From positions 2,356,001 to 2,420,000 of the forward strand of contig JAOVFP010000002.1 of NCBI GenBank assembly GCA_025738555.1: a stretch of 64,000 nt of DNA. Direction: 5' to 3'. The first letter of the stretch is position 1. Each line of letters begins with the position of its first letter. Made by a program: the position numbers and the translations under genes. The DNA comes from Cyathus striatus. Its lineage: Eukaryota > Basidiomycota > Agaricomycetes > Agaricales > Nidulariaceae. The notes under the pieces were generated by a model, which worked only from the letters and a program-made list of their open reading frames with translations, was not told the origin of the DNA and did no database searches. Below, in pieces: positions 7,546 through 46,500 of this stretch.

Positions 7546-7680
7546 TGCCTAATATTCACCAATACACACTACTTAGTATTCACCCAATATGCCTTATAAA
7601 AATAGCACTCAATTTTGCCTGGATTATATGATTGCTGGCACTCATATTTTCAGGCTAATTGGTGAATAAATTGGCTGACA
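7546..7680 (+). repeat. Module shared by three satellite-array edges
   Basis: Sequence containing TATGCCTTATAAAAAT, CACTCA-rich words and TTGGCTGACAC. A closely related module lies directly beside the satellite arrays at 16,555-16,680 (inverted) and 20,070-20,190. In each case the sequence beyond TTGGCTGACAC differs, so this looks like the end of a mobile or recombining unit that carries the satellite. The exact end is not resolved. Confidence 0.6.
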
Positions 7681-22338: not shown

Positions 22339-22420
22339 GCACAGTACATAGTGCTGGACAAGAAGCCACAGCCATTCTCTTGGTTGAACAAAGGATATAG
22401 CCAACAATTGAAATTCAACA

Positions 22421-23272
22421 ATGACTAATGCAGAACAGCTTGCAAAGCCTGCAAAACATAAAGCAACTTCTCAGTTCAATACACAGTCCAAGTGCAGAGC
22501 ACTGAAAGATCATACCTCTGTTCATATAAATGTCATATCCATGACAATTTCCCCAGAACCATTGAAGCCAACTCCAGTTTTCTCTGGGGAATGTATGTTT
22601 TCTCCAGTTATGTGTTACTGTTATATATTGAGCTCTTACTTACTAATGTTTACTTGTATTTGTTTACTTGTCCCTTCCCTTTATTATTGACTTACCCCAT
22701 TCTCCAGTCTTGGCCTTTTTACCTATGACTATAATCTAGAGGCATATCACTAGTTTACTATGGTCTACATTCCATGGAGTTTACTTATCCCTAAGATGCC
22801 ACAAACCTATGGCCATTTACTCCATATGCATTCAGACTAAGTATTTTACTATATAAACTACTTTTGTAATGTAGATAGACTTCAGTTTCAAATTTACACC
22901 CTTTCTCCTGCTAAGGTCTTGAGCCAACTCTGCTATTCTGTCACTTACTCCACTTTGTTCTAAATACAGAACTGGAAGTCCAAGGGGTGCAACACACAAG
23001 TTGAAGCCAATGTTCCATTACTCCTGTACCCTGTTCACTACCTCCACACATCCTACTAACATGTATTGGTTACTCCACCACTAGACTATCTACTCCACTA
23101 CTCCTACTATCAACTCTGTGGTTCAATTCCTAGTGGAATAGAATGGGACATGACAATAAACAATAAAGTATGCAGCTCAGATATAACAGCAACAGCCCCA
23201 CATGAGAAGCCACATAAAAATGAGAATGGTACAGTGCTAGAGACCAATCTTGAAAATTTTAAAGGAGAATGA
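22421..23272 (+). pseudogene. Short open frame split by a solo LTR
   Basis: A frame starting MTNAEQLAKPAKHKATSQ continues after the 625-bp LTR plus 5-bp duplication are removed (630 bp, a multiple of three), resuming at NNKVCSSDITATAPHEKP and stopping at 23,270-23,272. About 73 residues in total, with no recognised domain. It lies directly downstream of the LTR at 21,053, so it could be a gag remnant; that is only inferred from position. Confidence 0.35.
22531..23155 (+). mobile_element. Solo LTR, 625 bp, target duplication ATAAA
   Basis: Same family and same length as 8,232-8,856, starting TGTCATATCC and ending CATGACA. The flanks are ATAAA (22,526-22,530 and 23,156-23,160), a perfect duplication. 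Compared with the other copy most CG sites are TG or CA here, such as ACTCCAG for ACTCCGC and CCATGAC for CCGTGAC, so it is older or has been methylated for longer. Confidence 0.95.
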
Positions 23273-25705: not shown

Positions 25706-26364
25706 TGTGCCCCTAGCCTGACTTGGCAGCAGAGAATGAGAGGGTGACTATGGAGAAGCAAGAGGTAAGTATGAGATGAAGGCAGAGAACAGTAACTCAG
25801 GGGGTAGGACTTTGGCTTCAGCTTATGTGCTGTGCCCCTGGGATTCCTGGTTCTGGATTTCAGAGTAAGGGCAAGCCCTTTGGAGGAGACAAGAGGTGAG
25901 AGAGATGAGAGGTGTAACTCAAGTCAGATGAAAGGGTGAGGACATAGTTCAATACAAAACTAAAGGCTAACTACAAATTGAGTGCTACTTAAACACTAGA
26001 GACTCAGAGTAAGTATTTAAGTGGAGAAGTATGGTCAGGGTAGGTGTATGTAGAATGAAGACTATAACTAATAAAACATAATAAAACACATTGGAGAAGT
26101 GAGCACATGTGGTGGTGTAAAGTGAAACTGATAGTGGTGCACTTAAGAATGATAAGTGACTCACTATGAATGTATACTACAATTACTGAGGGGATAGCTC
26201 AGTAGAACAGAGGAGTGGAAACAGAAGTAATCTATGTACAGTAATCAATATGTAATAGTAATGAAATAAGCAATGTCTGGAGGAAACAATAAGAAAGGCA
26301 GAGTAAGAGATTGGGGGTCCAGAGGTAGGTGACATGGGATATGACAGAATGCTTGTGCTGCACA
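25706..26364 (-). mobile_element. LTR-like insert with TGTGC..GCACA ends (659 bp)
   Basis: Interrupts the DUF6589-like gene between HPSGL and the FNKHWFL block. Its termini form a TGTGC..GCACA inversion. I could not find a clean target duplication (ATAAC and AGTCC flank it), so boundaries are approximate. The plus strand contains tRNA-like words (GGGGATAGCTCAGT near 26,190), but no complete tRNA folds. Confidence 0.55.
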
Positions 26365-26629
26365 AGTCCAGAAGGATGATCTTCAATCTCAGGATATATG
26401 TGCATATTAAGATCCTGTATTGTAATAAATGGCCTGTCTTGAGATCTAATATCTGAGTTTAACTTCAAAATATTCCACAGTTCTGCAGAATAATTAAGGT
26501 CTTTCAATGTAATATTATGGGACAATGGAAGCATAGTGCCCAAAGTAAGATGCACAAAAGTTACTTGTGGCTTCTCAACAGTTGGTACAGAGTGCTTCAA
26601 ATCAATATCAAAATTATCATAAGCATACA

Positions 26630-27401
26630 TGTTATGTATACTTAGCTACATTTGCGCACTCATGGTTTTTCATCTATAAATTCTATCTCTGTCTACTACA
26701 TTTTACAAAATTCATTACAAAACCTATATATTTTCCAATCTCTCATAGCTGTACAAACTACTCATTTTATTTCTATCTTGGTTTACCTTTAGAATGACAG
26801 AAGTAACCTAAGCAAGTAAGTATTTACACAGCTAAAGGCTACTCCTGCCATAAAAGGCTATAAACCAACTCGGTTGTGTTGACCGAGAAGGCCCTGGAAG
26901 CAGTACCTTCTTGAGCCCTGTAGAATACATAGGACTACACAAGAACAATCTAGATATATTAGTACTACAAGGTATATAGCTTGTTGTGTAGATAGGAAAA
27001 ACAACCTTTTTACTACCTTTCAACTCAGTGTAAACTGTAAGAATCCAGCACTCGACTTAAGGCTTTGTGCTAAGTCTTGTATCATTGCTAAAAAGGGTAC
27101 ATAGTATTTCATACCTACCTACTTGCTACAAATGTACTACATAAGTTAGTATTGTCGATTGCTGAATATCAACAGATAGTCCAATCGGCAGTAGCCCATG
27201 ACATACTTGATCTCCAGCTTGGCTGACTCACGCTTCGAGAACTTGACCCTTACTGAACATACTAAGCATTCTCACATTCAGATACATTATTACTTAAATC
27301 TACACTAAACTACAGGGTATGTTCCGATTTTGAAACTGCTTTGCTAAACCTTTGTGTATTCACAGGAATACACCAACATCAAGTTCTTGCGAACCATAAC
27401 A
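26630..27401 (-). mobile_element. Solo LTR, 772 bp, target duplication ATACA
   Basis: On the minus strand it starts TGTTATGG and ends CATAACA. ATACA flanks both sides (26,625-26,629 and 27,402-27,406 on the plus strand). Excision joins the DUF6589-like frame as ALYAYDNFD, the expected family sequence, so both borders are exact. It still carries several CG sites (TCGGTTGTGTTGACCG near 26,870), suggesting it is younger than the host pseudogene. Confidence 0.93.
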
Positions 27402-28597
27402 ATACAGTGCCAAAAGTTTTTTCCCAACTTCTTTCATCTTCACCTCTGCTGTTTTTGAAAGAGATGAGATTGCTTCATTTATTGTGCTTGTAGATATTGA
27501 TAATCCAAGTCTTGCCAATAGCTCTCATACTGTCTCTGATGTATTTTCAGTGTGTAAAAAAACACCAACAAGTGACTGAAAGGCATTGCAGCAGTTGTTT
27601 GAACTATGCATTGGGATATTAATACAAGCAACTGCTTTCTTTAATTATAAAATCAGCATGACTACACAACTGTATTTAAAGTTTAGAACTATGTACTATT
27701 GTTGTAAGAGATTCAAATCTAATCTCTTTATGTTCCTCCATGTTCTATAGTATATCTTCATCAGCTTCAATGATAGGGGCTCCTTCTATAAAAGCAGAAT
27801 AGTTCTTATTATTTTCATTTTCATTTTCATTTTCAGATATCTCTGGGATTGTTACAAAAACATCCTGCATGTTTATATCACCATCACTGTAGTCTCCAGC
27901 TGAAGTGTCTTTTTTTCTCTTCCTCTTTCCTTTTTTCTCAGTTACAGATTCATGCCAAACATGTTTTCAATTGCTTAATTCATCATTTGATGACAGAAGG
28001 CATTTGGTTAAATGCCATACATTAGGTGTGATCATCTTAAACTGCTCAGCAGTTTCATCAATCTGAAATTTATGAAGCTTCTCTTTTGTAGTTTTGCATG
28101 CTGTAAAGTAGAGCCCAGTTTCCTCCCTTGAAAGAATATTGATTTGAAATTTATATAAAGATAGCATATGATCTTGTGTCCATGCTTGTGCAATGTTACT
28201 AGCTGGAGCATTGGAATAAAGCATTTCCAAAGCTTGGTTGTATTTTGTATAAAAATTTGTGCTATAACATGAGCTTGAAGCTCTGGAACTGTTAGTATAA
28301 CTTCTATGAGATCAATTAATTCTATGCTGGATGCTTGAAGTAAATCAAGCAGTCTCCATTCAACTGTAAGCTCTTCAGGTTCATTGTAATCTATTGTGTG
28401 GGGTAGTAACAACAGTGACAAGCAAGAGAATGAGAAAGGATCAATATGGTTATTCTGAACACTACTTGCAAGCTAATATATATAGTGACATACTAGCTAC
28501 AGTAAAGATCAATGGTGGTATGAGTAAAAAATGCTGCTTTAAGTTCATGGTGGGTAGATCAAGACCATGAACACTGAAATGTGGAGCACTTTACAGT

Positions 28598-28900
28598 CCC
28601 CCACACATTTACATGGACTCCATGTGGACTACATGTAATTTTCTGGGAGCCTACATGGAGTCCACATAGACATTGGGAGACTTTATGTGGAGTGAATGTG
28701 GAGCTTACATGGAGTACAGAAGGATCGATACAGAGATAAGTCTGCATACAAACTCTACATGGACTCCATGTGGAATACAAGGAGTGTCAGTGGACTCCAG
28801 GTAAAATTTCCACATAAAATCCATGTATCCTCCATGTAAAGTCTACATAATCCTTGTGTACTCCATGTAATCCCTGTTCACTCCTTGTGCACTGCTAAAG
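28598..28900. repeat. Left subterminal repeat array
   Basis: Repeated words ACATGGACTCCATGT, CATGTGGACTCC and GTGGAGT in both orientations, matching the right end of the element. Such subterminal clusters usually serve as transposase-binding sites; that role is inferred. Confidence 0.8.
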
Positions 28901-29254
28901 TAAACTATTCTTTACTTTATTATAGTAAAAATAATACAATTAATATAAAACATCCCCAACAGGAATTGAACTACTGACATAGCAGGTTAACTTACCAAAG
29001 CACAGTGCAACTTACTGTTACATCAACACAGCTTGTGTTTTGTATGGCACAAACTCCACAAGACCAGTAGGTGCACTTGGCAGTACCTGGCTGTCAGCAA
29101 CAAAATGTATGTGCTGTCAACATTGACAACGAATGTATCACTCTCCCTCTTCCCTCTTCCTCGCACCTCAACCCCTCCAGGTCTCCCCTCCTCACCGCTC
29201 TCAAGCTTCACGCTCACAATGACAAACAACGAACGTTGTTTTGTTCTCTTCTTC

Positions 29255-30150
29255 CCTCCCTCCCCTCCCCTCCCCTTGTTGTACAAGTGATGACGACAGG
29301 CGCCATGCCGTTTTGCCCCTCCCTTGCCTCCCTTTGTTGTGCAAGTGATGAAGACAGGCGATGTGCCATCTCGCACCTCCCTTGCCTCTCCTTGTCATGC
29401 AAGTGACAAAGACAGGCGCCTTGCCATCTCTCTCCCCTCCTGTCCTCTCACCTCATCATGCAAGTGATGAAGATGGGTGCCTTGCTGTCTCCCTCCCCTC
29501 CTGTCCTCTCACCTCGTCATGCAAGTGACGAAGACGGGTGCCTTGCTGTCTCCCTCGCCTCCCCTCCTCTCACCTCATCGTGCAAGTGACGAAGATGTTA
29601 GATATTCTGGGTTGCACAGCTTCTTTGACAGCTGTCACTTGTCACCTGTCATACTTGACAGTTCTGTGATTGACAGATATGTGATTGACAGATTGACAGC
29701 TGTCTGTTACCTTAGTTACCTGGAGCTTGGTTGGACTTTGGTAGATAGCCTCAGTATATATACACTCTGTAACTTGGTAGTTAGTAACAAGTTTCCTCCC
29801 CATCTTGTGTCTGTGTTAGTGTTTGTGTCTGAGTCATTTGCTCCCTTACCACCTTCCTTGCTCTTTATTACCCTCTATTCTCTCTCCATCCACCCCCTCT
29901 ATTCTTGTTACTTCTCACAGAAGATGGGCACCTTGCTGTCTCCCTTGCCTCCCCTTGCCTCCCCTCGTCATGCAAGTGATGATCATGGGCACCTTGCCAT
30001 CTCCCTTGCCTCCCCTTGCCTCCCCTCATCATGCAAGTGACAAAGACAGGTGCCTTGCCATCTTGCCCCTCCCTCCCCTCCCCTCCCCTCTCCTCGTTGT
30101 GCAAGTGATGAACACGGGTGCCTTGCTGTCTTGCCCCTCCCTCCCTGCTG
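29255..30150 (+). repeat. About 60-bp minisatellite, 9 units, split by a solo LTR
   Basis: The unit holds TGCAAGTGATGAAGACGGG, GCCTTGC and a long CCCTCCCCTCC pyrimidine tract, and recurs every 57-61 bp (near 29,285, 29,342, 29,400, 29,460, 29,520, 29,582, then 29,972, 30,033 and 30,101). It is strongly purine/pyrimidine-biased by strand. Long open frames on both strands are repeat artefacts. Confidence 0.85.
29596..29919 (+). mobile_element. Solo LTR, 324 bp, target duplication GAAGA
   Basis: Starts TGTTAGATATTC and ends TTACTTCTCACA, flanked by GAAGA on both sides (29,591-29,595 and 29,920-29,924). It lies inside a minisatellite unit, so the empty site is visible in neighbouring units. It contains many TGACAG words (29,628-29,700) and a TATATATACAC box near 29,755. 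The size and ends would fit a Ty1/Copia LTR, but the superfamily cannot be decided without pol. Confidence 0.9.
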
Positions 30151-30786
30151 TTTACACTGCATCGTCAGCACCACATAAGATGTCTCCCCATGGCGCATGG
30201 AAGCCACACCAGTAGCAAGACACTCTCAAAGCGTACATTGGATCTATGTAAGTGACATTCCCCACTGAAGTCCCACCTGCTAACTCACATCCCACAGCAT
30301 CATCTATGCTCTGTAGACAGCCACATCAGTGCTGCAGTATCCAGCCCTCTCTCCTCCACCTCTGTGTCATAATGATGACAATGCTCTATCATCCACCCCC
30401 CTCTTCCCTCCTCCCTGCGACAAGACAACAACAGTACCGCTGGCGGGAACAGCATCACTGCCACGTCATCCAGCCCTCCTCCTTCCTCCTCCACATCAAG
30501 ATGCAACGACACTGAATGTCATCAGTGCCATATCATCTGCCCCCACCCTCCCTCCATCCCCATGTCGTGATAATGATGGGGCCATGTCATCCAGCTCTCT
30601 CCAGCCCTCTTCTCCCCCATGTTGCGATGACGGTATTGATGGTGTGTCGCCAGCCTCGTTCGCTGCTCACTACAACGCCCCTGACCTCAACGCTCTCCTA
30701 CCTCCACCCCATCCTTGCCCACCTCAGTTCCCGCAGCATCATCAGTTCTGCATGGGACCCTTCACCCCACTAACTTCAACTGGTGG

Positions 30787-30849
30787 GCTTTGCTATTTCT
30801 GCCGAGAAGTGATCTATGTTAGATCACTTCTCAGCAGAAATAGCAAAGC
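30787..30849. repeat. Near-perfect 29-bp-arm hairpin
   Basis: GCTTTGCTATTTCTGC..GATCT, a 5-base loop, then the inverse. The only arm mismatch is CG against TG. A second hairpin of 15-bp arms (CTGGGAAG..) follows at 30,911-30,945, again with one CG/TG mismatch. Both lie in a region with repeated CACATGGGTGACTGGCTG words, about 0.5 kb upstream of the element's first gene. Confidence 0.85.
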
Positions 30850-31422
30850 TTACCTATTGATCAGCTATACCCATTTGATGTGGCACATGGGTGACTGGCT
30901 GTTATTGCTGCTGGGAAGCGATTCATTGCTTGAATCACTTCCCAGTACATGTTGATTGGCCATGCCCATTTGACTTGGCACATGGGTGACTGGCTGCCAT
31001 TCTGAATCACTTCCCAGCATATGTTAATCAGTCTTGCCCATTCAACATGGCTGATAGGTGATTCATGTATGGCCTTGTCCTTCTGAGTCAACTCTCTGCC
31101 TCATCTTTTGTCTTAATGGTGGTTAGTGTAGGTGATGTATTAGGATAGTAGTTTGTTGTTTAGTATAGATATATCATGAGTGATTTGTTGTTTAGCATGA
31201 GATATTATTAGATGTATAAATAAGTTCAAGTTATATTTGGTGTGCGCCTTATGAATCACATGTGTTTTTCATGTGTGTGAGAGAAGAGTTAATTTTAGTA
31301 CATCTGTGTACAGTATATATATTGCTCATGTGAACTATTTTACTTTCCTTCCCCCCCATCACTTGCCTAAGCACACAAATACTTTCAGCTTGAGTTTACT
31401 TTTTGATAACTTTTTACAACTA

Positions 31423-33745
31423 CAATGGCCCCCAAATCTTCCAAACAACAACAAAAATCCACAAAGTTAGATATTACTAAATTTCGCTTATTTTAAGATT
31501 AATATTTCTAATTAACTATTTAGAAATTCTTCTAAGCCTGCTGTTGAAACTGACAAAGATACTATTAATAAACCAATTTCAAAACGACAAACAAAGTAAG
31601 ATCTTTCATATGAATTATATACAAAGCTAATTATCATGTCATAGAAATTCCAACAAACCTTTGGTTGAGCCAGAGGAGTCTAAGCCTAAGACAAAAAAAC
31701 CCAAGTAAGTATTGATATTGATAGTATAATTTTTTATTTATATCACTTTATATTTAGAAAAACAAGCACTCAGCACATTCAAGAAGATATTAAGGAAGAT
31801 GCTAAAGGTGCCCCTGAGAAATTGACAAAAGCTGCAAAAATTCTTGAAATTGGAGGTGATGCTGTAGCCCCTCCACCTATTATTCAGGCCTCAGCTTCAA
31901 CTTTGCCACCTCGGCCCATGAGAGTTATTTCCTCTGATATTGAGGATGAGTTGAATACAGAACAAGCTGAGCTGATAGTACAAAAGAACATGGAATCTGG
32001 GTCTAAAGCTGAAATTGGAACTAAAGCTGGATCTGAGTCTAAGGATGAAACTGGTTCTAAAGCTGAAACTGGGTCTAATATTGAGCATGGGCTAGATGCT
32101 GATTTAGTTAACTTGAACAAACAGAAGGATGTTGAAACAGAAATAGCAAACAAAATGCAAGTTGACACCCAGACTGGAATAGGAGGGTCAAATATGAATG
32201 CTGGTGAACTTGATGAGGAGACTGATAAAGAGGAATATGAAAAGAGAGCTGAGAGTGAAATAGATGATCATTCAGATGAAGAGAGTGAAAAAGAGAAAAG
32301 TGCAGAGAATGTAAATGAGAATGATACATTTGAGATGAAAAATAACAATAAAGATGGCAGTGAAGAGATGAGTAGTGAGAATGAAGAAGAAAATAATGAT
32401 GAGAATGAGAATTTTGAGAATACTACTCCTAAGAAAGCAAAAGTCAGTACAAAGAGATATTGAGATTCTACCCCAGAAAGTCATACAGGCAGCTCTATTA
32501 GTAGAGTTACTAAGAGTAGTCGCAGATTTACATCTCATAACTCTGCTGCAACAGTTCCACCTGATAGCCCTTCTCCAATTGAGCTTGAAGGTGCTTCTAG
32601 AACTCATGGTGGATTTTCTAGAGGAAGAGCTTTTGGAAATACATTTAACTCTGCTGATTTTGATAATACCAATGATGCATTGATGCATATTGAGGAATCT
32701 GATTCAGGCCCTGTAATGGGAAGGGTTATAATATACTCTGATCATTCTAAGCAAAGCCCACCATTTGTTGTTACACAGCCACTTGGCACTAAGCTAGGAG
32801 ATATTCTTCACAATATATGTGTAGAATATGAGTATACTGCTATTCAATGTGAGTTAGTTACAATATATAATATACTAATAACTAATATTTGTATAGCTTG
32901 TTTTATCTATATTCAAGATGATAATATGTGGGTACTTAAGGGAAAATACCACAAAGCTTTGGAGAAAAATGAGACTGTTCCTTGGATTAAAGATGAGAAG
33001 GGGAAGTATTCTATTTCTTTGTCAGCTGTAAGTTTCATATTATAACTTCTATAGCATTGCTTCTGAACTATATAACCAGGAGAGTATTTCTGAAATGGTT
33101 CCAGCACTGCCTGTAACTTTAGGTGGTGGTACTACATCTCAACATATGAAACCATCTGGATCAACTGTTGTGTCTTATCCATTTGATTTAGACTCTGTTC
33201 AATACAAGATAGCTTCAGCATTCAATGTCTCTAAGGGACTCTGTGAAAGAAATGTAAAGAAAGATATTCAAATTTCTTATCAGAAATACTTGGCTATTCA
33301 TGACATTTTTGCAAAGTTTCCTGCAATGATAGCCAATAACATTTGGAAGGAGAAAAGACCTTCTAATGATGATATTATTGAGGTTTTTATGTCAAAGTCA
33401 ACATACTATTTCTATTATAGTAACCCATTTTCTATGGTGCCCCAGATTCCTGGATTGGATAAATGGCTCAAAGGAGATTCAGATGCGCCACACACTGGTG
33501 AAGTTTGGGGTCATGGAGTAAAGCCCAGCTTGGACAACTTGAAGAAGTTGTTGAATAATATTAAGAGTGACCATTCCTCCAGTGCAAATGCAGAGAATGA
33601 AGATGAGGAAGGATCTCATAAGAAAAAGAATGACAAAGGAAAAGGGAAGGCAAAAGGGAAGGAGAAGGAATTGGGAAAGGGAAAGGGCAAAGATAAAGAA
33701 GTGGAGGTTAAGTCTAAGGGGAAGAAGAAGAAAACTAACTTGTGA
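31423..33745 (+). pseudogene. Accessory gene of the KDZ transposon, one premature stop
   Basis: Starts MAPKSSKQQQKS. The first three introns (31,464-31,525 region, about 31,597-31,643 and about 31,706-31,758) all split the gene as AA|GT..AG|A, giving phase-2 junctions. The body is Ser/Glu/Lys-rich with TGSKAETGS repeats and acidic runs (31,822-32,463). An in-frame TGA at 32,461-32,463, probably from CGA, breaks an otherwise open frame that continues through VMGRVIIYSDHSKQSPPFV, two further introns (about 32,849-32,896 and 33,029-33,078) and a block with KRPSNDDIIEVFMS and GLDKWLKGDSDAP. The tail is a Lys/Gly run (KGKGKAKGKEK). No known domain. Being the second gene of the transposon, it is presumably a transposition accessory protein. 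Confidence 0.75.
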
Positions 33746-33877
33746 GTATAGTGCTTTATGTGAAATAGTTTTTGTATATACATGAAACAAACAATTGATG
33801 TGTTGTTGATGTGTTGATGCTAATCTTTTCCAATTGATTTCTTAAATTATATAACTCTGGTCCTTCTACTGACAATT

Positions 33878-36181
33878 ATGACTAACAGGAACATCTGGAA
33901 GATATTAAGCAATTTTATTATATTTTATATCTTCATTGGGTTATTTCCTGCAGTTTCAGCAATGCAAGATCCATTTCCATCAGTGAAATTTTCTATATTT
34001 GCACAATTTATTGAAGACAACTTCAGTTCAGAAATTAACTTGAATACAGTTATATTACTGCTATTAACATTAACTAACAATACTGATTTATTAAACTTAC
34101 ATGCAAGACAACAAAATCCATCACTACAAGATGAACATGCACAAGTTCATACTAGTTGGATGAATGCATTAAGTAGAGCACTTTATGAAAAATTAAATGA
34201 AGATATTTACAAGTTGTTCACTTCAAATGAAAATATTGAAGTAGATGAAGAATCATTTATTACAGAAGTTGGATTGAAGATGAATGCATTCTCGAAGATA
34301 TTTAGATCCATATGATGAGTGTGGAAGATTTACTGAGTGGCTTAAACCAATATCTCACTCTGTCATTGAGCCAATCTTTTTAATTTACCCTGCACATGCA
34401 GAATGTAATAATCGCAATTGCTATAGAAAGTCATTAAGTCAGAAGTCTCAGTCTCATGATATTCCACATGTTTCATTGATCAAAGACAGTAAACAATATC
34501 TGAATTCTCATGTTCTTAGTGGCAAATGTAGTTGTTGCAAAGCAATTTATTATGCAGACTATAAAAGTGTAATTAATCCATTTAATTCTGCACAGCAGGA
34601 CAGAATATACTTAAATCTGGCAAAGTACCTTAAAGTGGGAAAACAAGTTTGGGTTGATCATACATTTTCATCTGCTGTTGTAAATGCAATATACAGCTTT
34701 CATGCATCTGCATCTGCATTTTCAGAATTTTGGAATACAACATTTATTATAAATGAGGGAGGATCCAAGGCAATTTCATGCTGGCAAGCTTAGCAAGCAT
34801 TTGTACAGGAATCTATTCAACAAGTTGCCTTGAGTTCTAATACTGTTTTAAAAATAGCTGATGGAACAAAAATTGATGATGTAACTAGATATGCCTTTAC
34901 ACATTTGGGAGAAGAAGGTATTGTATGAAGTGCAGAAAATCACCACTGCAGTGAATGTACACAGAGATACAAAGCTAATGCTGATATAATTACACCTGAT
35001 GATCCAGCTGCAGTAGCACAAGTAGATGAAAACCAAAATATACCTGCATTAACAGGTAGAGATGCAGATAGAGCAGCTAGAGATGCTGCTGAAGCAAGAT
35101 ATAATGCTCAAAATGCAATGAATGTTGATCCAAGTCCAAATGAGAGCTTAAATGAGAATTCAGCACTTGTAAATATGGTTGTTGTAGATGGCATTGTTAT
35201 AGGACCTGCTCGTTGTGCCATAGAGAACTGTACTCAAGATCTAGTCAATGCAAGACAAGGTGTTTTCTGTGCTATGCATGAAGTACTACACAAAAATTTA
35301 TGCAGAGTAAATGGCTGCAATAAAATCTAGTTCAAAATATAAAGGCATGTGAAGAGCACCAGCAAAAGTGGTGATCACATTTCACAAGATTTGGCAGACA
35401 GTCATTACTTGGTGTCCAAAGAATATTATGGCATACCCAGGAAGAACAACTCCCATGGTTACCTCAGATCAATAGACAAGTTCAAGCACATGATATTATG
35501 AGCTCCAGGGAGGAAAAGAAAAAAAAGGACTACTTTTCTCCATCACAATTTTATTGCGTTGAAACAATCTGTGCACCATGTGGTGTAGTCCTTGCTTGGG
35601 CAAAGTTTGATAAGTCTGAGTCTATAGATCAAATATTTGAATTTTTAGAAAAAGTATTTCCAACAGAGGATGTCTGGCCAAGTTACATATGCATAGATAA
35701 AGCCTGTGTTTTTCTCAAAAGTGCAGCTACAAATGGGAAATGGATAGAGTGGAAAAATACAACATGATTTGTTGTTGACTCTTATCATTATATTAATCAT
35801 AGGGTGACTGATTATATATGTCATAAATGGTGTAACCCAGCACCATTAAATGGATCTGCTCCAAATTTAGTTGTGGTTGAACATGATGTGAATGGTGTTC
35901 CACATTACAAACGCGCATTTAATACACAAGTTAGTTTTATATTCTTATAATTGTATAACTATTGCTAATTAGTAATATAAGGCATGTGAGCAATTAAATG
36001 CATGGATAGGCGGCTTCCAAACAATGTTGAACAGAATGACATTATCTAATTTTAACTGGACCATGCACACACTATTGTTTTTACACACACAAAGGGTTAT
36101 AAAGAGGCAAAAAATGAAAGATCAAGTGGTAGAAGAAGATGACAATGAGGAAATAGGAATTGATATAGAGAGGGATGACTA
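33878..36181 (+). pseudogene. CxC5/CxC6-type KDZ transposase, decayed
   Basis: Blocks in order: MTNRNIWKILSNFIIF start; a helical N-terminus to 34,300; after a frameshift, YDECGRFTEWLKPISHS with a CxC5-like cluster AECNNRNCY..GKCSCCKAIYY; then WVDHTFSSAVVNAIYSFHA; SAENHHCSECTQRYKA; a CxC6-like cluster CAIENC..FCAMHEVLHKNLC; SPSQFYCVETICAPCGVV; PSYICIDKACVFLK; VDSYHYINHRVTDYICHKWC; and after a short intron (about 35,939-35,980) ACEQLNAWIGGFQTMLNRMT, the usual KDZ end. In-frame stops include 34,791 (TAG), 34,926 (TGA) and 35,765 (TGA), and there is a frame change between 35,330 and 35,498. CxC5 and CxC6 are cysteine clusters associated with KDZ transposases; the acidic catalytic residues were not individually checked. 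Confidence 0.88.
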
Positions 36182-36289
36182 ATACACCAAGTGCTGCTAA
36201 GTAGTATAGGTTAGTACAATATTTGTTGTTCATTTTCAATATATGTGTATGATGCTAGTTGTATCATTAAAATTCATGTATAAGATAGA

Positions 36290-36744
36290 CAACTCCATGT
36301 AAATTTTATGTGGACTCTATATAAAGCTTATACATATCAGACATCATGAACTGTTCATAAAGTTCACTAGACTCCATGTGTACTCCATGTGTACTCCATG
36401 TATAGTCCATGTATACCTCCATATATAGTCCATGTGTACTCCATGTGGAGTATACATAAACCTCTACAATGTTCTTCACATATGAATGAGGAGTGTATGT
36501 GGACTTTTATTACTACATGTGGACTCCATGTGGGTGCTATGTGGAGTAAATATGAATTTTAATCTATGTGTAAAGTTCATATATACTCCACGTGGACTCC
36601 ATGTGGAACTATGTAGACTCCACAAGGAGTTTACATGGAATTTATGGACTCAATGTGGACTTTACATGGACTCCACATGGACTCCATATAGAATTTAAGG
36701 AGGCTACATGGAGGCTACATGGAGTCCATGTATACCTGTGGGGG
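36290..36744. repeat. Right subterminal repeat array
   Basis: Dense copies of GGACTCCATGTGGA and CTCCATGTGTA words, counterpart of the left array, ending at CCTGTGGGGG. Confidence 0.8.
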
Positions 36745-37099
36745 AGCATAAATTACTGGAAATGTGAGAGATATAAATCAAGTGAAGAACTGAATCAGGG
36801 CTCTTGGAAACTTGCTGAATCCTGACAATGAGAACTGATGAAAAAAATGATTTTATTGTCATGTAAAGTTGAGTAATTTTTCTAAGCAAAATATTTCTTG
36901 GAATGTGCTGCTGAGGTTCTGTCATGTCTCTGAGAACATCAAGATGAAATCTGTTAATCTATCACTTACAAGTTTGGCCTCTTAGGTTTGTTTATTTGTA
37001 CACACCCTTTATCTTATCTCACATAGGCCATTCAAGTGAGTGATAAGGCTGGTTTTAGGAGCTTGGGTTTCTCAGGTGAAAGTGGGTTCCACTTTTTCA
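36745..37099. other. Spacer without recognisable gene
   Basis: No coding signal or repeat boundary recognised. Confidence 0.3.
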
Positions 37100-38451
37100 G
37101 TACTTACACACTATAGACTTAATGCTATTTATAATGTGTATATTGTATAGATCAATGTTCAACTTGCTTAGAACTTGACCTATGATCTGATTCTTATTCT
37201 GTTGTCATTAAAGATTTAGTTAATCTAAGGTGCTAACAGGAATTGACTTTGTTTGTGTTACAACACCTGAGTGTCAAGGAATATTTAGCAAGAATATTCT
37301 TGGAAATTTAATGGGTGATCTTGTACAGCAAAAGCTGTATGATTTGTATGAAACTTGATATGAAGGGTAATATACAGCAAAGGCTGTATGTAATGACAAG
37401 TATAATGAAAGGGGTATAGTACACACTATAGACTTAATACTATTTATAATGTGTATATTGTATAGATCAATGTTTAACTTGCTTAGAACTTGACCTATGA
37501 TCTGCTTCTTATTCTGTTACTGTTACTGTGACTAATACTGTGACTGCTACTGAACTGTTTACTGTTGCTATTACTGACTGGGCTGGCTGTACTGATAAAA
37601 ACTGAACTGATAATACTAATGACTAATGACAATTGGGTGAGACTACTGGGGGGTGGGTAGCTATCTATCTACTGCCAAACTGCCCTTCTTATATACCTTT
37701 TCCCAACCCACTTAGTAATCCAATTCCCACTCTTCCATCCTACATTGTTCTCCAAAATGAGTAGTATGCCAAGTGTAGATTTCAGATTCAAGGCTGTGTA
37801 GGACAATAGTATTTGAGGTTTAGTCAGCAGAGGACAATAGCATATGTTAGAACAATGTGTAATGAACTACATTGTTCTAAGTAATGAGTTACATTGTTCT
37901 AGACAAGAACAATAGGAGTCTATATTTATAGTCAATGAGGTAGTGAACAATGATACCTATCTGCTATTGTGTGAACAATGACAGTGAAAACAATGGAGTT
38001 ATGTATAAATAGTTTCTTATTGTCTTCAAACAATAGGCAATTAGCACAATGCAGTTCCATTGTTGTGAACAATGGTGGTAAAAACAATGGAGTCTTATAT
38101 AAATAGTTTCTCATTGTCTTCAAACAATGGGTGAGCAGTACAATGCAATTCATTTGTTATGAAAAATGGTGGTGAAAACAATGGAGTTGTATATAAATAG
38201 TCTCTCATTGTCTTCAAACAATGGATGAATAGGACAATGGAAGAGTACATATTATCCTTTGTTAGTGCATTGTTTGTGCAACTGATTAATTATTGGTATG
38301 TGTATTATATTTGATAGTGATTTAGCATTGTTTGTTCATGTGTGGTATTGGGTATATTTGATTAGTGGTGTGATGTATCATGTGATTGTGTGAAGTATTT
38401 GGTTATGTGACATGACTGTGCAATCCCTTTTATCAAAAATCAGGCCTGACA
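37100..38451 (-). mobile_element. Inverted LTR, 1,252 bp, plus a partial tandem copy
   Basis: On the minus strand it starts TGTCAGGCCTGA (38,451) and ends GACAACA (37,200). It is almost base-for-base the same as 21,053-22,338 in reverse, including the TATA-like box and CCATTGTT units. Immediately beyond its end, 37,100-37,199 repeats an internal LTR segment (GATCATAGGTCAAGTTCTAAG and the following 80 bases), joined at the microhomology ACAGAATAAG. This suggests slippage or an LTR-LTR rearrangement. No pol is attached. Confidence 0.8.
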
Positions 38452-40010
38452 TTGTCTCTGCTCCAGCACTGCATTTTGTGGTTGTGTCAAGTGCAAGTTG
38501 CCAGTGTTGTCTGAAAGCCCTAGTGGTATTTATCATGGTGAGCCTCTTTGAAATTCTAATGTTCTAAAACACAGACTCTTTCATACATTACTGTCATTAT
38601 TCATTCTTTGTCTCTTATTCTCATTCCACCTTACTATGATACTTTCTATTTCAAATTCCTTCACTTATGTTATGTTTTTCCAGGCACTGGCAACATGAGA
38701 GCATGTGTGTGCCATTCTGTTTCAATTGTCACTTATGTATATACTGCAAGTTGGGACTCAAGAGGAATCTCACCTCCCTTTACTGGCTTCACTCTGTGTG
38801 TGCACATTGAGTCTCTGAGTTACATAGTCATCAGGAAGTGTCATATTAAACCTCAAACTATAAGCTAAGTTCTCATTATCATCTCTAGCTACTGACTACT
38901 CTAGTCTAGAGTTATTGTAGTTAATTGTTCTAGTTAGGTGTGATACTTGCCACATGTCCTCAAGTTAATTCCTCCACACCACTCTGGGCAGAAAGTCATT
39001 AGGGCCCCAATCTAGCTGCAAGCCTGGCTCTGACATTGAACAATAGAATACAATGGCCTGGACCTTCAGTACTTCCAGATGCTGTTTGTCAGGATCTCTT
39101 TTTCTTATATTATCTAAACTATCATGTGACCTTTCACATGACCCACATGCAGATACCACATGGATCACTGTGCCTTTATCATCAAGACTGTGGACATGGT
39201 TACACAGCCAAGAACACACCTTTTACATATATTTAACACATGTAGTAGATTAGGTAGTAGATACATGAGGATTAAGCATGGACTATACTATAAATATGGT
39301 CTTTTAATTATCTATTCCTTACTCTTGTGCTGGTGTATTCCAGACTTGCATTGAACCAGACTTCTATATATTCTCAAGTGTTTGAGTACAACTTCAAGAC
39401 AATTGTCAAGTCTGTTGCTAACACTGTTGTCAGTTTATTGGTGGATCTTTGGTGCTGTGATTGGTTTTGGTACTGGGTAATAATGTAATGCAGGCAGGTA
39501 CAGGATGATGTAATTGGTCTGGTCAGAAGGTGATATTATAGAGCTGTAAAATAATGCCAGGACATGGATTGAACCAAGGAGCTTATCACTTGAATAGGGA
39601 TCTTCTGCCCCTGGCTCACTAGGGTGCAATGGTAGGCATGCATAATGGAAACTACTATGTCATTGCACCTCTTTGTTACTGAGAGTTGTACTTCTAGATT
39701 TATTGAAAAATTTTCAGTTACAATGAAGGTGACTACATTGTATATTAGCTCAAATTGTGCTACTGTGAACTATAATTTTAGTAATAGTCTGTACACTTGA
39801 CATAACAAGTCAGAGGTGCAGAAGATGAGACTGTACTGATGAACCAAAAAATGGGAGCTGACAATAAAAGGAATATGTCCATGCACTTGACATAACAAGT
39901 CAGTGGTGCAAATGAAATTAATCTGAATAGAAGTAAAAACAGAAAGAAAAAAGGAAGCAGTAACCATCAAAATTAGTTCAAAACATATTATAGTATGTAA
40001 GTGGCCAGTT
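38452..40010. other. Spacer with small repeats, no recognised gene
   Basis: No convincing open frame. Two copies of CACTTGACATAACAAGTCAG lie about 100 bp apart (39,793 and 39,886). A minus-strand stretch at 39,545-39,630 has a B-box-like GGTTCAATCC but does not fold as a tRNA. Confidence 0.35.
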
Positions 40011-43000
40011 TCAGTTGCCTTTATTCTGATGAACTTTGTCATAAAAAAGTATCAGATAATAAAACACATTACAAAAAAACTCAAACACACCTTGACAACA
40101 TCCAAGAATAATAGAATAAATATCTGAATATATATCCTTCCAATCAGAATTTGAATATGGAAACTGATCATATTTGTGAAGAGCTTTCTCCACTTTCTCT
40201 TTTAATCCAGTACTTGTAAAAGATTTAAGTGCTTCTTTGAATGAATCAACTACTGTTAATTCTGAATTATCTACCCAGAATGTAAATTCTGTGCAAACAA
40301 TAATGCCTGAGAATAAAAATAAAAATATTAGAGCATTAATAACAAAAGTAGAGATAAAACAAACTAGCAAAAGCTACAAGTGTAGGTTTCTGAATGAAAT
40401 AATAAGCATTTATCAAATAATATAAGTAAATATAAACTAACACCCATTTTAATGCCCAAATTTCTTTCGAATTCCATAGCAATGCCAACCTAAATGCATA
40501 TTGTTTACACATTTTTTAATAGTTATAATATATGGCTTACAAGCTAAACCCAGAATGGTTAAGATAATGAATTAAGTTTAAACAACAAGAAACTCACATC
40601 CTAAATAGAAATTAGTCAGATAATAGGTTAAGTTCAAAAAAAAAAAGACACTTACATTCTAAATTCAGAATGATCAGATAATGAATCAAGTTCAAAAAAC
40701 AAGAGACTTACAGTCTAAATCCAGAATGATCAGATGATGAGTCAAGATCAAAAAACAAGAGATTTACATCCTAAATCCAGAATGATCAGATGATGAGTCA
40801 AGTTCAAAAAACAAGAGACTTACACACTAAATCCAGAATGATCAGATGATAAGTCAAGTTCAAAAAACAAGAGACTTACACACTAAATCCAGAATGATCA
40901 GATGATGAGTCAAGTTCAAAAAACAAGAGACTTACACCCTAAATCCAGAATGATCAGATGATGAGTCAAGTTCATAAAATAAGAGACTTACAATCTAAAT
41001 CCAGAATGATCAGATGATGAGTCAAGTTCATAAAACAAGAGACTTACATGCTAAATCCAGAATGATCAGATGATGAGTCAAGTTCAAAAAACAAGAGACT
41101 TACAAGCTAAATCCAGAATGATCAGATGATGAGTCAAGTTCAAAAAACAAGAGACTTACATTCTAAATTCAGAATGATCAGATGATGAGTCAAGTTCAAA
41201 ACACAAGAGACTTACATTCTAAATCCAGAATGATCAGATGATGAGTCAAGTTCAAAACACAAGAGACTTACAATCTAAATCCAGAATGATCAGATGATGA
41301 GTCAAGTTCATAAAACAAGAGACTTACAAGCTAAATCCAGAATGATCAGATGATGAGTCAAGTTCAAAAAACAAGAGACTTACAAGCTAAATCCAGAATC
41401 ATCAGATGATAAGTCAAGTTCAAAAAACAAGAGATTTACATCCTAAATCCAGAATGATCAGATGATGAGTCAAGATAAAAAAACAAGAGACTTACATGCT
41501 AAATTCAGAATGATCAGATGATGAGTCAAGTTCAAAAAACAAGAGACTTACACACTAAATTCAGAATGATCAGATGATGAGTCAAGTTCAAAACACAAGA
41601 GACTTACATCCTAAATCCAGAATGATCAGATGATGAGTCAAGTTCAAAAATAAGAGACTTACATCCTAAATCCAGAATGATCAGATGATGAGTCAAGTTC
41701 AAAAAACAAGAGACTTACAAGCTAAATCCAGAATGATCAGATGATGAGTCAAGTTCAAAAAACAAGAGACTTACCCACTAAATCCAGAATGATCAGATGA
41801 TGAGTCAAGTTCAAAAGACAAGAGACTTACACTCTAAATCCAGAATGATCAGATAATAATTTATATTCAAAAGATAAAAAACTTACACCCTAAATATGGA
41901 ATAAGTGAATTTGTTTTATATTTATAAAAGAAGGGATAATTACATTCTATATTATAGTCATGATGTACCTCAACTTTGAAAGTGCAAAGTAATAAAAAAT
42001 TATTTTAACTCACATACTGTAAAGAAATTCCATCAGTCAAATTGGTAAAAGTTTTAGTGTTACTTACTGTGTAGTCCTGTTGCTTATTGTATCAAATATT
42101 CTCTTAAACTGTTTTAGTCAATTTACAGTATAATTTTAAATGTTACATTACCTGAAATATTGTTGAGGTGCTTACCTTTTCCTGTTACATAGATTAGATA
42201 AGTGATTAAGCAGGATCTGTGCTTACATATGAATGAGGAAACCATGCAAAGCAAAACTCTATGAGCATTTTCTTTATAATAATATTGGTCATATCCAAGA
42301 TATTAATATGATTTAACACACCACTGTTATGAACTCAGAATTATTAGAAAATATTTTAAAGTATTCCTTAGTTCCACTACACTAGCTTTGAGTCACACAT
42401 ACTTAATTTAAAAATGTTAAAATACTTACTATTTTAAAGCATATTTTATGCAGAGTTCCAAATTATTCTGCTGAATTGATATAAACAGCATTTTAAGTGC
42501 AATATCATTCAAGGATTCTGCTGTTTTTTCAACTAAATCTTTCACCTGATTTTGATGGTTGCTATTTTCATCATGTAAATCTGTAAGGAACATGTTAGAA
42601 TAGTAATTGTAAATTATCAGCTAATGCTATCACTGTAAAGAGAATAACTGCTATTCACCTTCCATCAATGTATATGCCTTAGGAGGATAACTATAATTGT
42701 GTAATGGATTTATGAACTTGTGTTGCACTTCTTTTTCAGCCTCATGTCGGTTCTTTTCATCATCCAGGTCCTCATCATAGATCTGAGCCATGAGATCATC
42801 AAATTTTGTTATGATTGCAATAACAGGAACTGACATGATTATTTTATATGCATGAGAAACTTCATTACAGATACTCTTACCTGCTCTTTCTTTGTTGAAG
42901 AACTTCTCTTCAAATTCAAGAAGAGGCCTTGAAGTGTCTGGTGTAAGGCAAAACCTGAAATTCAAGGTTACATTTTGGCTCCTCGGACAATTTTAGAGGA

Positions 43001-43527
43001 ATATACCAAATAGCATGTAGTTGATCATTAATTTCCGTAGATTTAGACCGCTCTGCGATGAAGTCTTGAACTTCCTTACGCTGACTCTCATCTCCTGCTT
43101 CGATTCCTGCAGAATCATGGAAGATGAATCTCGGGTTGCTCCTGAAGGAAAAGGCACGATTAATATCATGCACTCCGCGCTGGTAATGAGTCAGTCAGCG
43201 AACTATTGATGGACTACATCAAGTTAAAGGTAGAAAACCTCTGAAGTTGGTTCGAGCTCCTGTATGTATATTTAAAATGCTATTTTCTTGCCGATAGACG
43301 ATGGGACTTACCAAATTTCCGTTTTTATCATAAATACAAGGGTCCTCCGTTGTGTTGCAGACTCGTTTCAAGAGCGTTGTCTTGCCAGCATTGGCCCGAC
43401 CGATGACGAGTATACGAAAACATTCATAAAGATCAGGCTTGAATCGCTTGTCCATAATGTTGAGTGTATCAGTTGAAGAATCGATGGTGGCAGCTGATGG
43501 GTGAGCAATGAGATCGATGAAGTTCAT
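40011..43527 (-). CDS. P-loop GTPase with a membrane helix encoded by 27 three-base exons
   Basis: Proposed 39-exon gene of 465 codons; all exons sum to a multiple of three. Exons 1-7: 43,527-43,312, 43,259-43,239, 43,179-43,007, 42,954-42,881, 42,829-42,659, 42,580-42,430, 42,323-42,227. Then 42,181-42,176 and 42,108-42,068; 27 triplets from 42,016 to 40,541; then 40,489-40,444, 40,389-40,365 and 40,306-40,011. Residues 43-50 are the Walker A GRANAGKT, then FIFHDSAGIEAGD, TKFD (169-172) as the G4 motif, SIQQNNLELCIKYAL and WFPHS. Residues 318-344 come from the triplets and are entirely hydrophobic apart from one Gly. The end has SIIVCTEFTFW, matching this fungal GTPase family. Function inferred: membrane-anchored GTP-binding protein, pathway unknown. 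Less certain: the 6-nt exon, the 40,365 donor (GTTTGT) and the exon 2 donor (GTTTTC). Confidence 0.8.
40541..42016 (-). repeat. 56-bp tandem array: 53-nt intron plus one variable 3-nt exon per unit
   Basis: On the minus strand each unit runs GTAAGTCTCTTG .. TTGACTCATC .. TCTGGATTTAG followed by three bases, then the next GTAAG. The 53-nt part is nearly identical in about 22 units; changes are few (for example at the AAAAAAC run). The three bases are the variable part: 11 different triplets in 27 (TAT, AAT, GGT, AGT, TGG, CTT, GAT, TGT, CAT, ATT, ACT). The units at 40,541, 40,598, 41,887, 41,944 and 42,014 have diverged introns (51-67 nt) but keep GT and AG and the 3-base spacing. Each intron has a donor, a branch-like TTGACTCA or TCTGAT, and a TTTAG acceptor. 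Confidence 0.9.
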
Positions 43528-46500
43528 GTATCCCTGTGTACAAATTATAGTGCCCTCAACTTAAAACTCCGCGTCATCACAGCCAATTACAACTAGATGT
43601 CCTATATTAAATCCTATTGCTATTCTTACGTAGAACCACATGATATGAGAGTGAAACATATATAGCAAGTGCCTGCTTCGACGCCTCCCACCTTAACTCC
43701 CTACAAGTGGAATATCGACGAGCCACGTATCGGTACGGTCTCCGAGAGCCTTGTGTTGGCCTCGTGTAAGCCCAAGCCTCTATTGACATTCCACTTACTC
43801 GTGCCTCCATTCCCATACATTATGAAGGACTCAACCGCTCGACAGCAACTCCCCTACTAACACCCGATATTCTGTAATCCCCCCGCAATTGATACGCCCT
43901 ATGGTCCGAAGGCTCACAGATGTGACTTAAGGCTGTATGAAGTAACCGGAGTAGTTGTAGTATTTATCGCGCCGTAATCGAGCAGCACGATCGTGCAGGT
44001 TGCTTTCATATAATCTTATGTTGAAGAACAGTCCTGCACAGTAAGTATTACTTAGTTCTAGCTTCGACCGCAATGAAAGAGTGATTACTAACGTGCCCTG
44101 CTTCAATTGATTCAGACGAACAACCGACATTCACATATCAAAACCAGTGCTGCTAACCGCACGCTTTCAACTTCTTGTCACCGTGCATAGCAGCCCGTGG
44201 GTTCCGTCGATTGCTATTGAAAGGCCCAAATGCACGGTATCAAGAGCGTATTATGACATGAGTAGATTAAGAATCAGTAGGCGTGTAGATGACGCAACGC
44301 GTAATAGAACGTAGTTTCTCGTGTAATGACGGAAGTTTGGGTTTCGGAATGGATATGCATGCGCTGCGAACTATGTACCGCGGCCTAAGGGATCTTTGCG
44401 GTGGACGACGCTTGCTTTCGTTGTCTTTCCGATTCCATCACAATAGCCAAGTATCTGCGTACGCCAATATGCGCAACATACGCTAACGCCACTCTTCCTT
44501 TCGGTGCTGGCTGTAGAGTGAACCTGGTGCACCTCGTAGCACAGACCAACAGCACAAGTGGGTGAAGCCCAGTGATTGTATATTGAAGTGAGAAGTAATA
44601 AGGGGCATGTACGAAAACGTGGTGCACCATTAACGAGAGTGTCCGCAATTCTGGGACAATGCTAGTCGACGCTGCAGTCCATTGTTCTTGTGATTTTGTA
44701 GCTTCCTGTTGCAGCTACCACTACTTAGACGTCGATAAGAACAGGAGTTTAAGACGACATAATTGACACAGGACATACCTTCTACATACAGTCCTGCATC
44801 GCATACACGGTCCCTACAATCCATCGTACTTGAGGAGAGCATGCCGCTTGATGACGCCTTCCCAGTGATCGTACACCTCCCTGAGAGGAATTGTGAACGT
44901 TTAATCCCTAAAGCTAACAGGATTCCTGCGGGAACTTCTGCTCCTCCTTGTGGTCGAAGCAACAGACCGAACGGGAACTTTGATGGTACACGGCAGTGCA
45001 AGGTACGATGGTGGCAATCTCACTGGGGTTTGACTCGCCTATGATATGTTGAGTCCATCGTCCTAATAAAAAGAACAATTAACAAAGACGTACTCGACTT
45101 TTAACGCGTCCTGTTGTAAGTATTTGCATTCTCCAGTAACTGAGTAACATGGGTCGCTCAGCCCAGTGATAAGGTCTGTAGCAACATTGAAAATTGTGAC
45201 CCGCTTCCGCATGCTACTCTTGTAAATGACATAGATGGAGTAGCTGTTGTCATTGTGCGGACTACATAGTGGTAGGTTGGCCCTGTTATAACTTGGCCAT
45301 GTTGGAATGGGTCGCCAGCAGTTTCTTATCGCAATACATCGGTTCACCGACGATCACTTGACCAAGGCGGAAGCTACCGGTCGATGTTGGACTCCCGTCC
45401 AACTTCGAGCCTCCTCAGTCCTACATATCCCTCGTCGTTTTAGGCTTCTAGCGGCATATGCATTCGCTCTGATGCCTCCGTATGTCTCTCCCCCTCCCCC
45501 TCTTAGATCTTCCCTTCTCATTCTTGCTTACTGGGTATACATCCATATGCGAACTCTTCACAGTGATACAACCCGTCCTAATCAACGGTACGCTTCCCCC
45601 CTCCCCTTCCTCTCCCCTTCCCTTACTAACCACACCCAGGAAAATGCCCAATAGCAAACACAAACTCCAACGGTTGAAGGCTCCTCCATAGGACCTCTGG
45701 CTCTGGACACCTAACCCTCTTTGGGGGCAAGTGTACCTCTACTTGTGAACGGACAAAATGCGGACAGGGCGAAGCCGCAATCTGGCAATGCACGAGTATG
45801 AATACGAATCAGAGGTTTTATTTGGGGGATAATCGTCTTTCGTACGCGAACCGTGGAGTGTTTTGGATTTGACGGATGGGATTTGGCTGATGGCAATCGC
45901 GTATGTTTCTTTTTTCTTCTCTCGCTCGTACTTTCACTCTGAGCTAATCAATGTTGGAATGGTGGTGTAGGTACGACTATGGCTCAGTGGAGTGTGGAAC
46001 ACAGGATACACGGCCTCCCAACTCCCCGGCACATCTCAAACTGAACAATTCAGCACGAACGCGTGCGGGGGTGGGAGTAGCTCGTCGTAATTGTAAAATT
46101 GCTGACCAAGTCTGTCCTCCTTCCTCTTCTCAACTTTGAGTATGACTGATAGGGTATGAAGCTCAGTGGACGATATCTGCCTTCTCTGTTTAGATCCTTG
46201 ATTCTTACGCGCTATAATGATGTGCAGCCTCCCTAAGAACAATAGGCGGCATAGAGTGCGAAGGAGTAACGCCGTGAAGCGAACCAGGGCGGAGGGCACT
46301 CACGAAGGCTTACACTTTGTCAAACCGCCCGATTATCTACAGGTTGCCGGCGTAGGCGACTTCACGAAGACTAAGCTGCGAGCCTGTGCAAACACATTTT
46401 CGACGAGGTGGGGTACGCCTGGGTATTCTTCCAGCCACTCACGGTATTACAGAGCATGTCAGCCAACCACGTGAGAACTGCGACGGGGACGAAGAGTGCG

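Follow-up and report, generated by a model that had tools for sequence, protein, structure and literature searches.

The triplet array and its paralogues

On the minus strand of the window, that is, the whole 64,000-nucleotide (nt) stretch of Cyathus striatus DNA under study, lies a GTPase gene interrupted by an array in which predicted introns alternate with single triplets (42016-40541). The array consists of 26 triplets with 25 introns between them, 24 of which are 52-55 nt long, and the first, following the triplet TAT, has a length of 124 nt. The triplets are preceded by TTTAG (TTTACAG in the first one only) and followed by GTAAG or near variants such as GTGAG and GTAAA. Tandem Repeats Finder describes the array as 24.2 copies with a period of 56. 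A first-pass annotation of the window had proposed a run of 27 consecutive 3-nt exons with introns of about 53 nt (GTAAG..TTTAG). The alternation stands, as supported by the shuffles and the genome scan presented below, and so does the intron length in all but the 124-nt case, but the triplets number 26. Inclusion of these single-triplet exons thus predicts 78 nt in the spliced product, and not 81 nt as stated there.

In the window, the pattern TTAGN3GTAAG-N36..66-TAGN3GTAAG is matched 18 times, versus never in 100 dinucleotide-preserving shuffles. When the genome (107 Mb, 24 contigs) was scanned with this 3-nt-exon double pattern, all 90 matches fell within three arrays, namely 18 in the window, 23 on contig C15 and 49 on contig C6, and a reversed-pattern control gave one match. 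The corresponding 4-nt-exon pattern had no match in the 107-Mb genome (reversed control 26), and a 6-nt-exon version had one there, in a simple repeat (reversed control 5). The triplet/intron array itself is real, far beyond chance. A chance minisatellite with splice look-alikes was ruled out by the shuffles, the genome-wide pattern counts and the invariance of GT and AG. The same kind of scan on viral contigs returned one match (L028), an unrelated 66-bp repeat resembling phage coding sequence.

The two other arrays occupy the equivalent place in paralogues on C15 (L009, 33 triplets) and C6 (L010, 57 triplets), and they support the architecture of consecutive 3-nt exons suggested by the first-pass annotation. 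All arrays were parsed with one script, in which 3-nt exons with AG and G[T/C] at the junctions were required, and their introns range from 49 to 125 nt across the three genes. When the three array regions were scanned for other exon lengths (1, 2 or 4-9 nt) flanked by TTTAG and GT[AG][AG]G, there was no match. Triplets of the form NNT make up 25/26 of the window array and 32/33 of the C15 array. One junction each appears to have been lost by deletion in C15 and C6, leaving fused introns of 95 and 86 nt, respectively. A 35-nt 3' part of the intron, searched through the 107 Mb with up to three mismatches, matched 76 times, always inside the three arrays (control 0), so that a dispersed introner is excluded at the sensitivity used. 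Two further relatives, C6:880190 and C6:910309 (37-39% identity), match in pieces of the G domain, and no array was seen in the stretches fetched (L026, L027); L027 has a lone AG-N3-GT pair with a spacing of 53 nt.

Near the start of the C6 array a second intron type, GTAAGTTTTTCTTTCATG..ATACAG, is present in tandem as two 49-nt copies (L010 3088-3136 and 3140-3188) flanked by the differing codons AAT, GGT and TAT. The duplication habit is therefore not bound to one intron sequence.

For the analysis of splice signals, 102 of the 113 array introns were aligned, the remaining 11 being excluded for their odd length or different type. The GT..AG dinucleotides showed no substitution in 408 cells, a zero partly ascertained by the parser with its required AG and G[T/C], versus 344 in 4284 cells of the intron interior. 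Columns with any variant were 0/12 for GT/AG and 86/126 for the interior (Fisher p 3.4e-6), and the wider signal GTAAGT..xTTAG had 13 substitutions in 1122 cells. This invariance over 102 introns, together with the low-complexity peptide found at the same place in cDNA-like relatives, further supports the proposed architecture.

The triplets behave very differently from the introns around them. Using units with 53-nt introns only (21/25 in the window, 24/32 in C15, 38/56 in C6), diversity at codon positions 1/2/3 was 0.74/0.69/0.09 in the window, 0.50/0.70/0.00 in C15 and 0.69/0.71/0.49 in C6, compared with a mean intron diversity of 0.051, 0.089 and 0.123, respectively. The introns are thus kept alike by homogenisation or constraint, the first two codon bases, which determine the residue, have reached saturation, and the wobble base follows the intron in the window and C15. 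Divergence at positions 1-2 is 0.74 per site for the 23 pairs of window units whose introns are identical, and 0.755 for all pairs. Intron and codon distances were uncorrelated in the window, C15 and C6 (permutation p 0.16, 0.43 and 0.94). Diversifying selection on the residues is probably the simplest cause of the saturation, a local mutational process being the main alternative.

Reading phase, product and competing explanations

Exon models of the three genes, together with homologues, indicate phase 0 for the array, so that a triplet reads as one codon. In this phase, all three genes are open from the ATG through the array to the last modelled exon. The exon following the array reads VGIAMEFERNLGIKMG, AGITIEFERYLGVEMN and SEIAMEFKQILGFEVS in the three paralogues; in the window gene VGIAMEFERNLGIKMG continues into KPTLVAFASIIVC, a stretch alignable with DKPYLTVFAALVIC and DKPSLTLFAALIIC in relatives. 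Homologues have the motif Y-x-Y-[GED] before the place of the array and KP.L..F(A/S)..I(I/V)C after it. Here Y-x-Y-G is formed by a 9-nt exon and the first two triplets, the counterparts being YDYG in P0121, YHYE in P0004 and YNYD in P0023. The C6 array holds no stop in phase 0, which is weak alone (0.84 expected, P(0)=0.40), versus 9 stops in phase 2 and 10 in the third phase.

The related proteins surveyed were 121, comprising the best 120 of 575 and P0121. A region search with the C-terminal part gave 5 relatives, none of them new, and P0121 came from a search with P0004. The C-terminal motif is reached by 9 of the 121 listed relatives (8 with a narrower motif pattern); a tenth match, in P0091, falls in the G domain and was excluded from the count. 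Three of the nine (P0121, P0004 and P0068) have a long low-complexity run at the array place. In P0121 (367 aa, 1554-nt contig) this is GGLGGGRLGGRLGHLRLGLGGRGGGLGHLRLL, 32 residues long and made up exclusively of G, L, R and H, against at most 16 in 2000 shuffles, and in P0004 (1498-nt contig) it is DDDDLLLLLDGLL. All residues of these two runs have an NNT codon in the genetic code. P0121 and P0004 are most likely spliced transcripts, because they are uninterrupted open reading frames in short contigs, and their runs may derive from such arrays. In P0068, a Phlegmacium glaucopus model, IMMLILMMVMMLLLLLIMLI stands just before SILICLENSFW, and the tail of the Cyathus striatus model P0002 after NYT is LMMIILIYIQIFILLFLNVVMV; both consist mostly of residues with T at codon position 2.

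Judging from the sequence, we consider it likely that the array encodes a hypervariable part of a G-domain protein belonging to the Agaricomycete PF01926 family, with one codon per predicted exon and splicing by intron definition. The introns, GTAAGT ... CTGAT ... TTTAG, would be excised singly, each donor using the closest acceptor, some 53 nt 3' of it, so that a 3-nt phase-0 exon would remain; exon definition is not plausible for exons of 3 nt. Such splicing in Cyathus striatus, the order of intron removal and a role of CTGAT as branch point are suggested by the arrangement of these signals. The product would have 26 residues inserted between the first Y of Y-x-Y-G and the conserved C-terminal hydrophobic segment. 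Units would turn over by tandem duplication and deletion, and this turnover, along with selection on splice signals, would keep the introns alike as codon positions 1 and 2 diversify, possibly under diversifying selection for a benefit such as recognition diversity or isoforms. Since every exon has 3 nt in phase 0, the gain, loss or skipping of a unit stays in frame. More tentatively, the locus could act as a generator of diversity at codon resolution, each residue lying on its own predicted 3-nt exon amid homogenised introns, through a locus-specific process or strong diversifying selection on the two bases per exon that determine the residue; this could be the case, at somewhat less than even chances. 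If so, substitution, gain, loss or skipping could affect one residue at a time with the frame intact.

Several points, besides the ascertained GT/AG zero and the low stop expectation already given, weigh against this interpretation. The last C6 triplet is followed by a GC donor (GCAAG), in four C6 units a second AG lies two bases on (AGA) and would give a 1-nt exon, and some non-array introns have weak donors (GTTTTC, GTGTTA, GTTAGT). Position 3 also varies in C6 (0.49), the conserved wobble thus being a feature of two of the three arrays. Positions 1-2 in C15 are shared by 5/12 pairs with a near-identical following intron versus 74/465 overall, indicating that the codon may sometimes travel with the unit; for a near-identical preceding intron, 1/12 pairs share them. 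Codon-position counts in the post-array exons (5/2/6, 7/4/4 and 7/5/6) do not decide the phase. Six of the nine listed homologues reaching the C-terminal motif are without a low-complexity run, and the cDNA nature of P0121 and P0004 and the origin of their runs are themselves interpretations. Finally, the annotated relatives P0068 and P0002 have I/L/M/V-rich runs near the array place; these may be either annotation shifts or true frames, and their genes may use a phase-2-like frame.

Phase 2 was in fact the choice of the first-pass annotation, which took the phase to be fixed by the flanking exons and the joined triplets to form a membrane helix of 27 residues, 8 of them Ile, running into LALLW and SIIVC. 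This count could not be reproduced, phase 2 giving 25 complete codons (7 I, 6 V, 5 L, 4 M, 2 F, 1 G) and two further codons (H, L) shared with flanking exons. The frame is stop-free inside the window and C15 arrays, and the runs of P0068 and P0002 resemble its product. However, it meets a TAG in the C15 post-array exon (CTG GCA TTA CCA TAG) as well as the nine stops of the C6 array, and it omits the conserved KPTLVAFA exon. It also requires a 41-nt upstream exon (42108-42068) for which C15 and C6 lack the acceptor AG; this exon most likely has just 9 nt (42076-42068), a length that all three genes allow. The hydrophobic string is explained by the final T of 25/26 triplets, which in phase 2 becomes codon position 2, and T at this position specifies Phe, Leu, Ile, Met or Val. 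With phase 0 open and its product matching family members, a helix read in phase 2 is barely credible. An intronic minisatellite is a more serious contender, yet still unlikely: the 1.6 kb from 42067 to 40490 would be removed whole, or by recursive splicing without codon retention, leaving the triplets untranslated, and the splice-like ends would have been duplicated together with the unit. The frame would survive omission of all units, as phase 0 applies both to the end of exon 10 and to the start of the following exon, and the homologues without a run fit such a removal. It is difficult to reconcile with GT/AG remaining invariant as the intron interior varies, with variation focused on the two amino-acid-setting bases, with phase 0 being stop-free in all arrays when the other C6 phases are not, with the low-complexity peptide of cDNA-like relatives, and with the remaining introns of the gene measuring just 45-106 nt.

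The other two explanations concern the origin of the units. A burst of introners, in which a mobile intron was repeatedly inserted into an existing coding segment with exons differing from the start, would account for the unrelated codons of window units with identical introns and for the second tandem intron type of C6 with its different codons. It appears highly improbable, given that all 76 intron matches lie in the arrays and no dispersed copies were found at that setting, that phase-0 insertion at exactly every 3 nt is left unexplained, and that the position-3 T common to two arrays acts as if it belonged to the unit. Alternatively, and compatibly with single-codon exons spliced by intron definition, positions 1-2 may have been diversified by error-prone or untemplated junction joining during expansion rather than by selection. 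Saturation of two bases beside unchanged introns would be hard to obtain by selection on ordinary point mutation alone. Nevertheless, no known enzyme is proposed, some near-identical C15 units share their codon, and the lack of stop codons would favour translation and selection, weak as that argument is. We regard this mutational route as rather doubtful, though it deserves consideration.

Gene model and surroundings

Gene models were fitted for the window, C15 and C6 genes, with splice sites shifted in C6 where needed. They have ten exons 5' of the array and three 3' of it, all open in the three genes, with totals of 798, 798 and 843 nt before the array (window, C15 and C6) and 289 nt after it. 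They include 6- and 9-nt exons, and a 4-nt exon in the window and C15. The best protein matches of the window gene, among the best 120 of 575 proteins, are Cyathus striatus models with 86% identity. One of them, P0002, reads ..ALK-YGK-VLIEFCFAWFPHSY-QQ-NYT, in line with the modelled small exons, and its ..WFPHSY-QQ-NYT is consistent with the pair of 6 and 9 nt. Against the PF01926 (MMR_HSR1) profile, the spliced window protein, taken with the first two array residues only, scored 26.4 bits versus a gathering cut-off of 21.9, which places it in the family, and the P-loop starts within 25 residues of the predicted start. The dN/dS among the three paralogues is 0.14-0.29 before the array and 0.38-0.67 after it, values by which the flanking exons are under purifying selection. 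A pseudogene or an assembly oddity was rejected, as there are three paralogues on three contigs with all modelled exons open and dN/dS below 1. The Cyathus striatus models P0001 and P0003 stop at ..YALK, short of the array, and P0002 departs from the conserved sequence after NYT; annotation is thus likely to miss the array. The coordinates are given in the table below.

Features of the array-bearing gene in the window (single-codon exons and other exons as predicted; for triplets, the high coordinate of each is given)
Feature	Position	Strand	Basis or remark
Exon 1, P-loop GRANAGKTT	43312..43455	-	Model; homologues
Exon 2, 21 nt, ELEPTSE	43239..43259	-	Model; identical residues in P0002
Exon 3, RGVHDI...LHAIW	43007..43179	-	Model
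Exon 4	42881..42954	-	Model
Exon 5, VPVIAIITKFDD...	42659..42829	-	Model
Exon 6, DLHDENSNHQ...CIKYALK	42430..42580	-	Model
Exon 7, 4 nt, TGGT, YG with neighbours	42320..42323	-	Model; ..ALK-YGK-VLIEF.. of P0002 fits
Exon 8, KMLIEFCFAWFPHSY	42227..42271	-	Model
Exon 9, 6 nt, EK	42176..42181	-	Model; QQ in P0002
Exon 10, 9 nt, DYT, first Y of Y-x-Y-G	42068..42076	-	Model; NYT in P0002; motif in P0121, P0004, P0023
Array, 26 single-codon exons and 25 introns	40541..42016	-	Phase 0 product YGSWLDDCHDLLINNLHIGCCDTNDL
Triplets 1-7	42016 TAT, 41889 GGT, 41833 AGT, 41777 TGG, 41721 CTT, 41665 GAT, 41610 GAT	-	
Triplets 8-14	41554 TGT, 41498 CAT, 41442 GAT, 41386 CTT, 41330 CTT, 41274 ATT, 41218 AAT	-	
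Triplets 15-21	41162 AAT, 41106 CTT, 41050 CAT, 40994 ATT, 40938 GGT, 40882 TGT, 40826 TGT	-	
Triplets 22-26	40770 GAT, 40714 ACT, 40658 AAT, 40600 GAT, 40543 CTT	-	
First post-array exon, VGIAMEFERNLGIKMG, phase 0	40442..40489	-	Model; open in all three paralogues
Exon KPTLVAFA(S)	40365..40389	-	Matches DKPYLTVFAALVIC / DKPSLTLFAALIIC in P0121 / P0008
Last large exon, IIVCTEFTFW...CCQ	40091..40306	-	Model; the stop would lie in a short terminal exon further on

The 99-nt intron before the 9-nt exon (42175-42077) carries ..ATATTTCAG|GTAAT.., conserved in all three genes at a distance of about 24 nt from the donor, possibly a ratchet point or a nested intron. Furthermore, the gene lies in a 5.4-kb block (39674-45071), including about 1.6 kb 5' of the ATG, which is shared with C15 at approximately 85% and, in a slightly shorter form, with C6 at approximately 76%; its part upstream of the ATG is well kept, and no exon is modelled there. 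Between the window and C15, the array intron consensuses differ at 1/53 sites and 11 single introns by a mean of 11%, and dS is 0.32 before the array and 0.24 after it.

About 1.7 kb from the last large exon of the GTPase gene lies an inverted repeat (21108-38433) with arms of 1239 nt that are 99% complementary and 14.8 kb apart. An open reading frame inside it (34284-34793) encodes a CxC5 domain associated with KDZ transposases, and the whole is probably a large, recent KDZ-type DNA transposon. The G+C content steps near 43500 from mostly 33-40% (1-43 kb) to 43-52% (44-64 kb), with the GTPase gene on the border. The low-G+C side is rich in satellites, e.g., a 102-bp repeat at 6134-7551.

Relation to known systems and significance

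The nearest parallels are the micro-exon genes (MEGs) of Schistosoma and tapeworms, which are described as having very short exons in succession, their lengths being multiples of 3, so that skipping is frame-neutral (PMC4015677; PMC7653826). Exon-skipping isoforms have been reported for Schistosoma MEGs, and most MEG proteins are described there as having a signal peptide (PMC4015677), whereas the fungal gene encodes a G-domain protein. The array also differs in that its exons have one codon each and its introns, at 52-55 nt, are tandem copies of almost the same sequence. The window gene has 39 predicted exons (13 and the 26 of the array, the terminal exon uncounted), where at least seven are asked for in PMC7653826. 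Predicted micro-exons account for 31 of the 39 (26 of 3 nt and those of 21, 45, 6, 9 and 48 nt), and 30 of them stand in a row (45, 6, 9, 26 x 3 and 48 nt). Under the structural definition of that paper, the gene as predicted counts as a MEG. The aphid bicycle genes are similar, by description only, in their abundance of small exons (megacycle has over 100 microexons), fast evolution and elevated dN/dS, and repeated introns are unmentioned in the part of the paper accessible (PMC9168663).

Exons of this size are known to be spliceable one at a time. Drosophila homothorax reportedly has a 3-bp exon (PMC7392893) and Arabidopsis APC11 a 1-nt exon (PMC4674806), in both cases a single exon as compared with the 26-57 in a row here. 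For APC11, the authors favour intron definition with recursive stepwise removal and argue against exon definition for the 1-nt exon (PMC4674806). Introners resemble the array in being near-identical spliceosomal introns in many copies (PMC9860276). They are spread over many genes, whereas all copies found here are in tandem in one gene family and thus lack the dispersal that characterises introners. The introner survey demanded at least ten flanking exonic nucleotides (PMC9860276), by which single-codon arrays would be excluded.

Within the Agaricomycete G-domain (PF01926) family, the non-array exons encode a typical member, and the variable segment alone is split into codon-sized exons. In the mainly open-access literature searched, we found no description of long runs of 3-nt exons or of mushroom microexon arrays, nor of single-codon exons divided by tandem copies of one intron. 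'Tandem micro-exons' have reportedly been described in plants, and introner-like elements and repeated stwintrons of fungi are said to be near-identical introns in many genes.

Such arrays may be commoner than known, since annotation likely misses them. If the genes are spliced as predicted, the spliceosome would remove 25 to 56 consecutive introns around one-codon exons too small for exon definition, which would constitute a stringent natural test of intron definition. The frozen introns next to saturated codons offer an internal control for selection. Under the same condition, the protein would be able to evolve residue by residue without risk to the frame.

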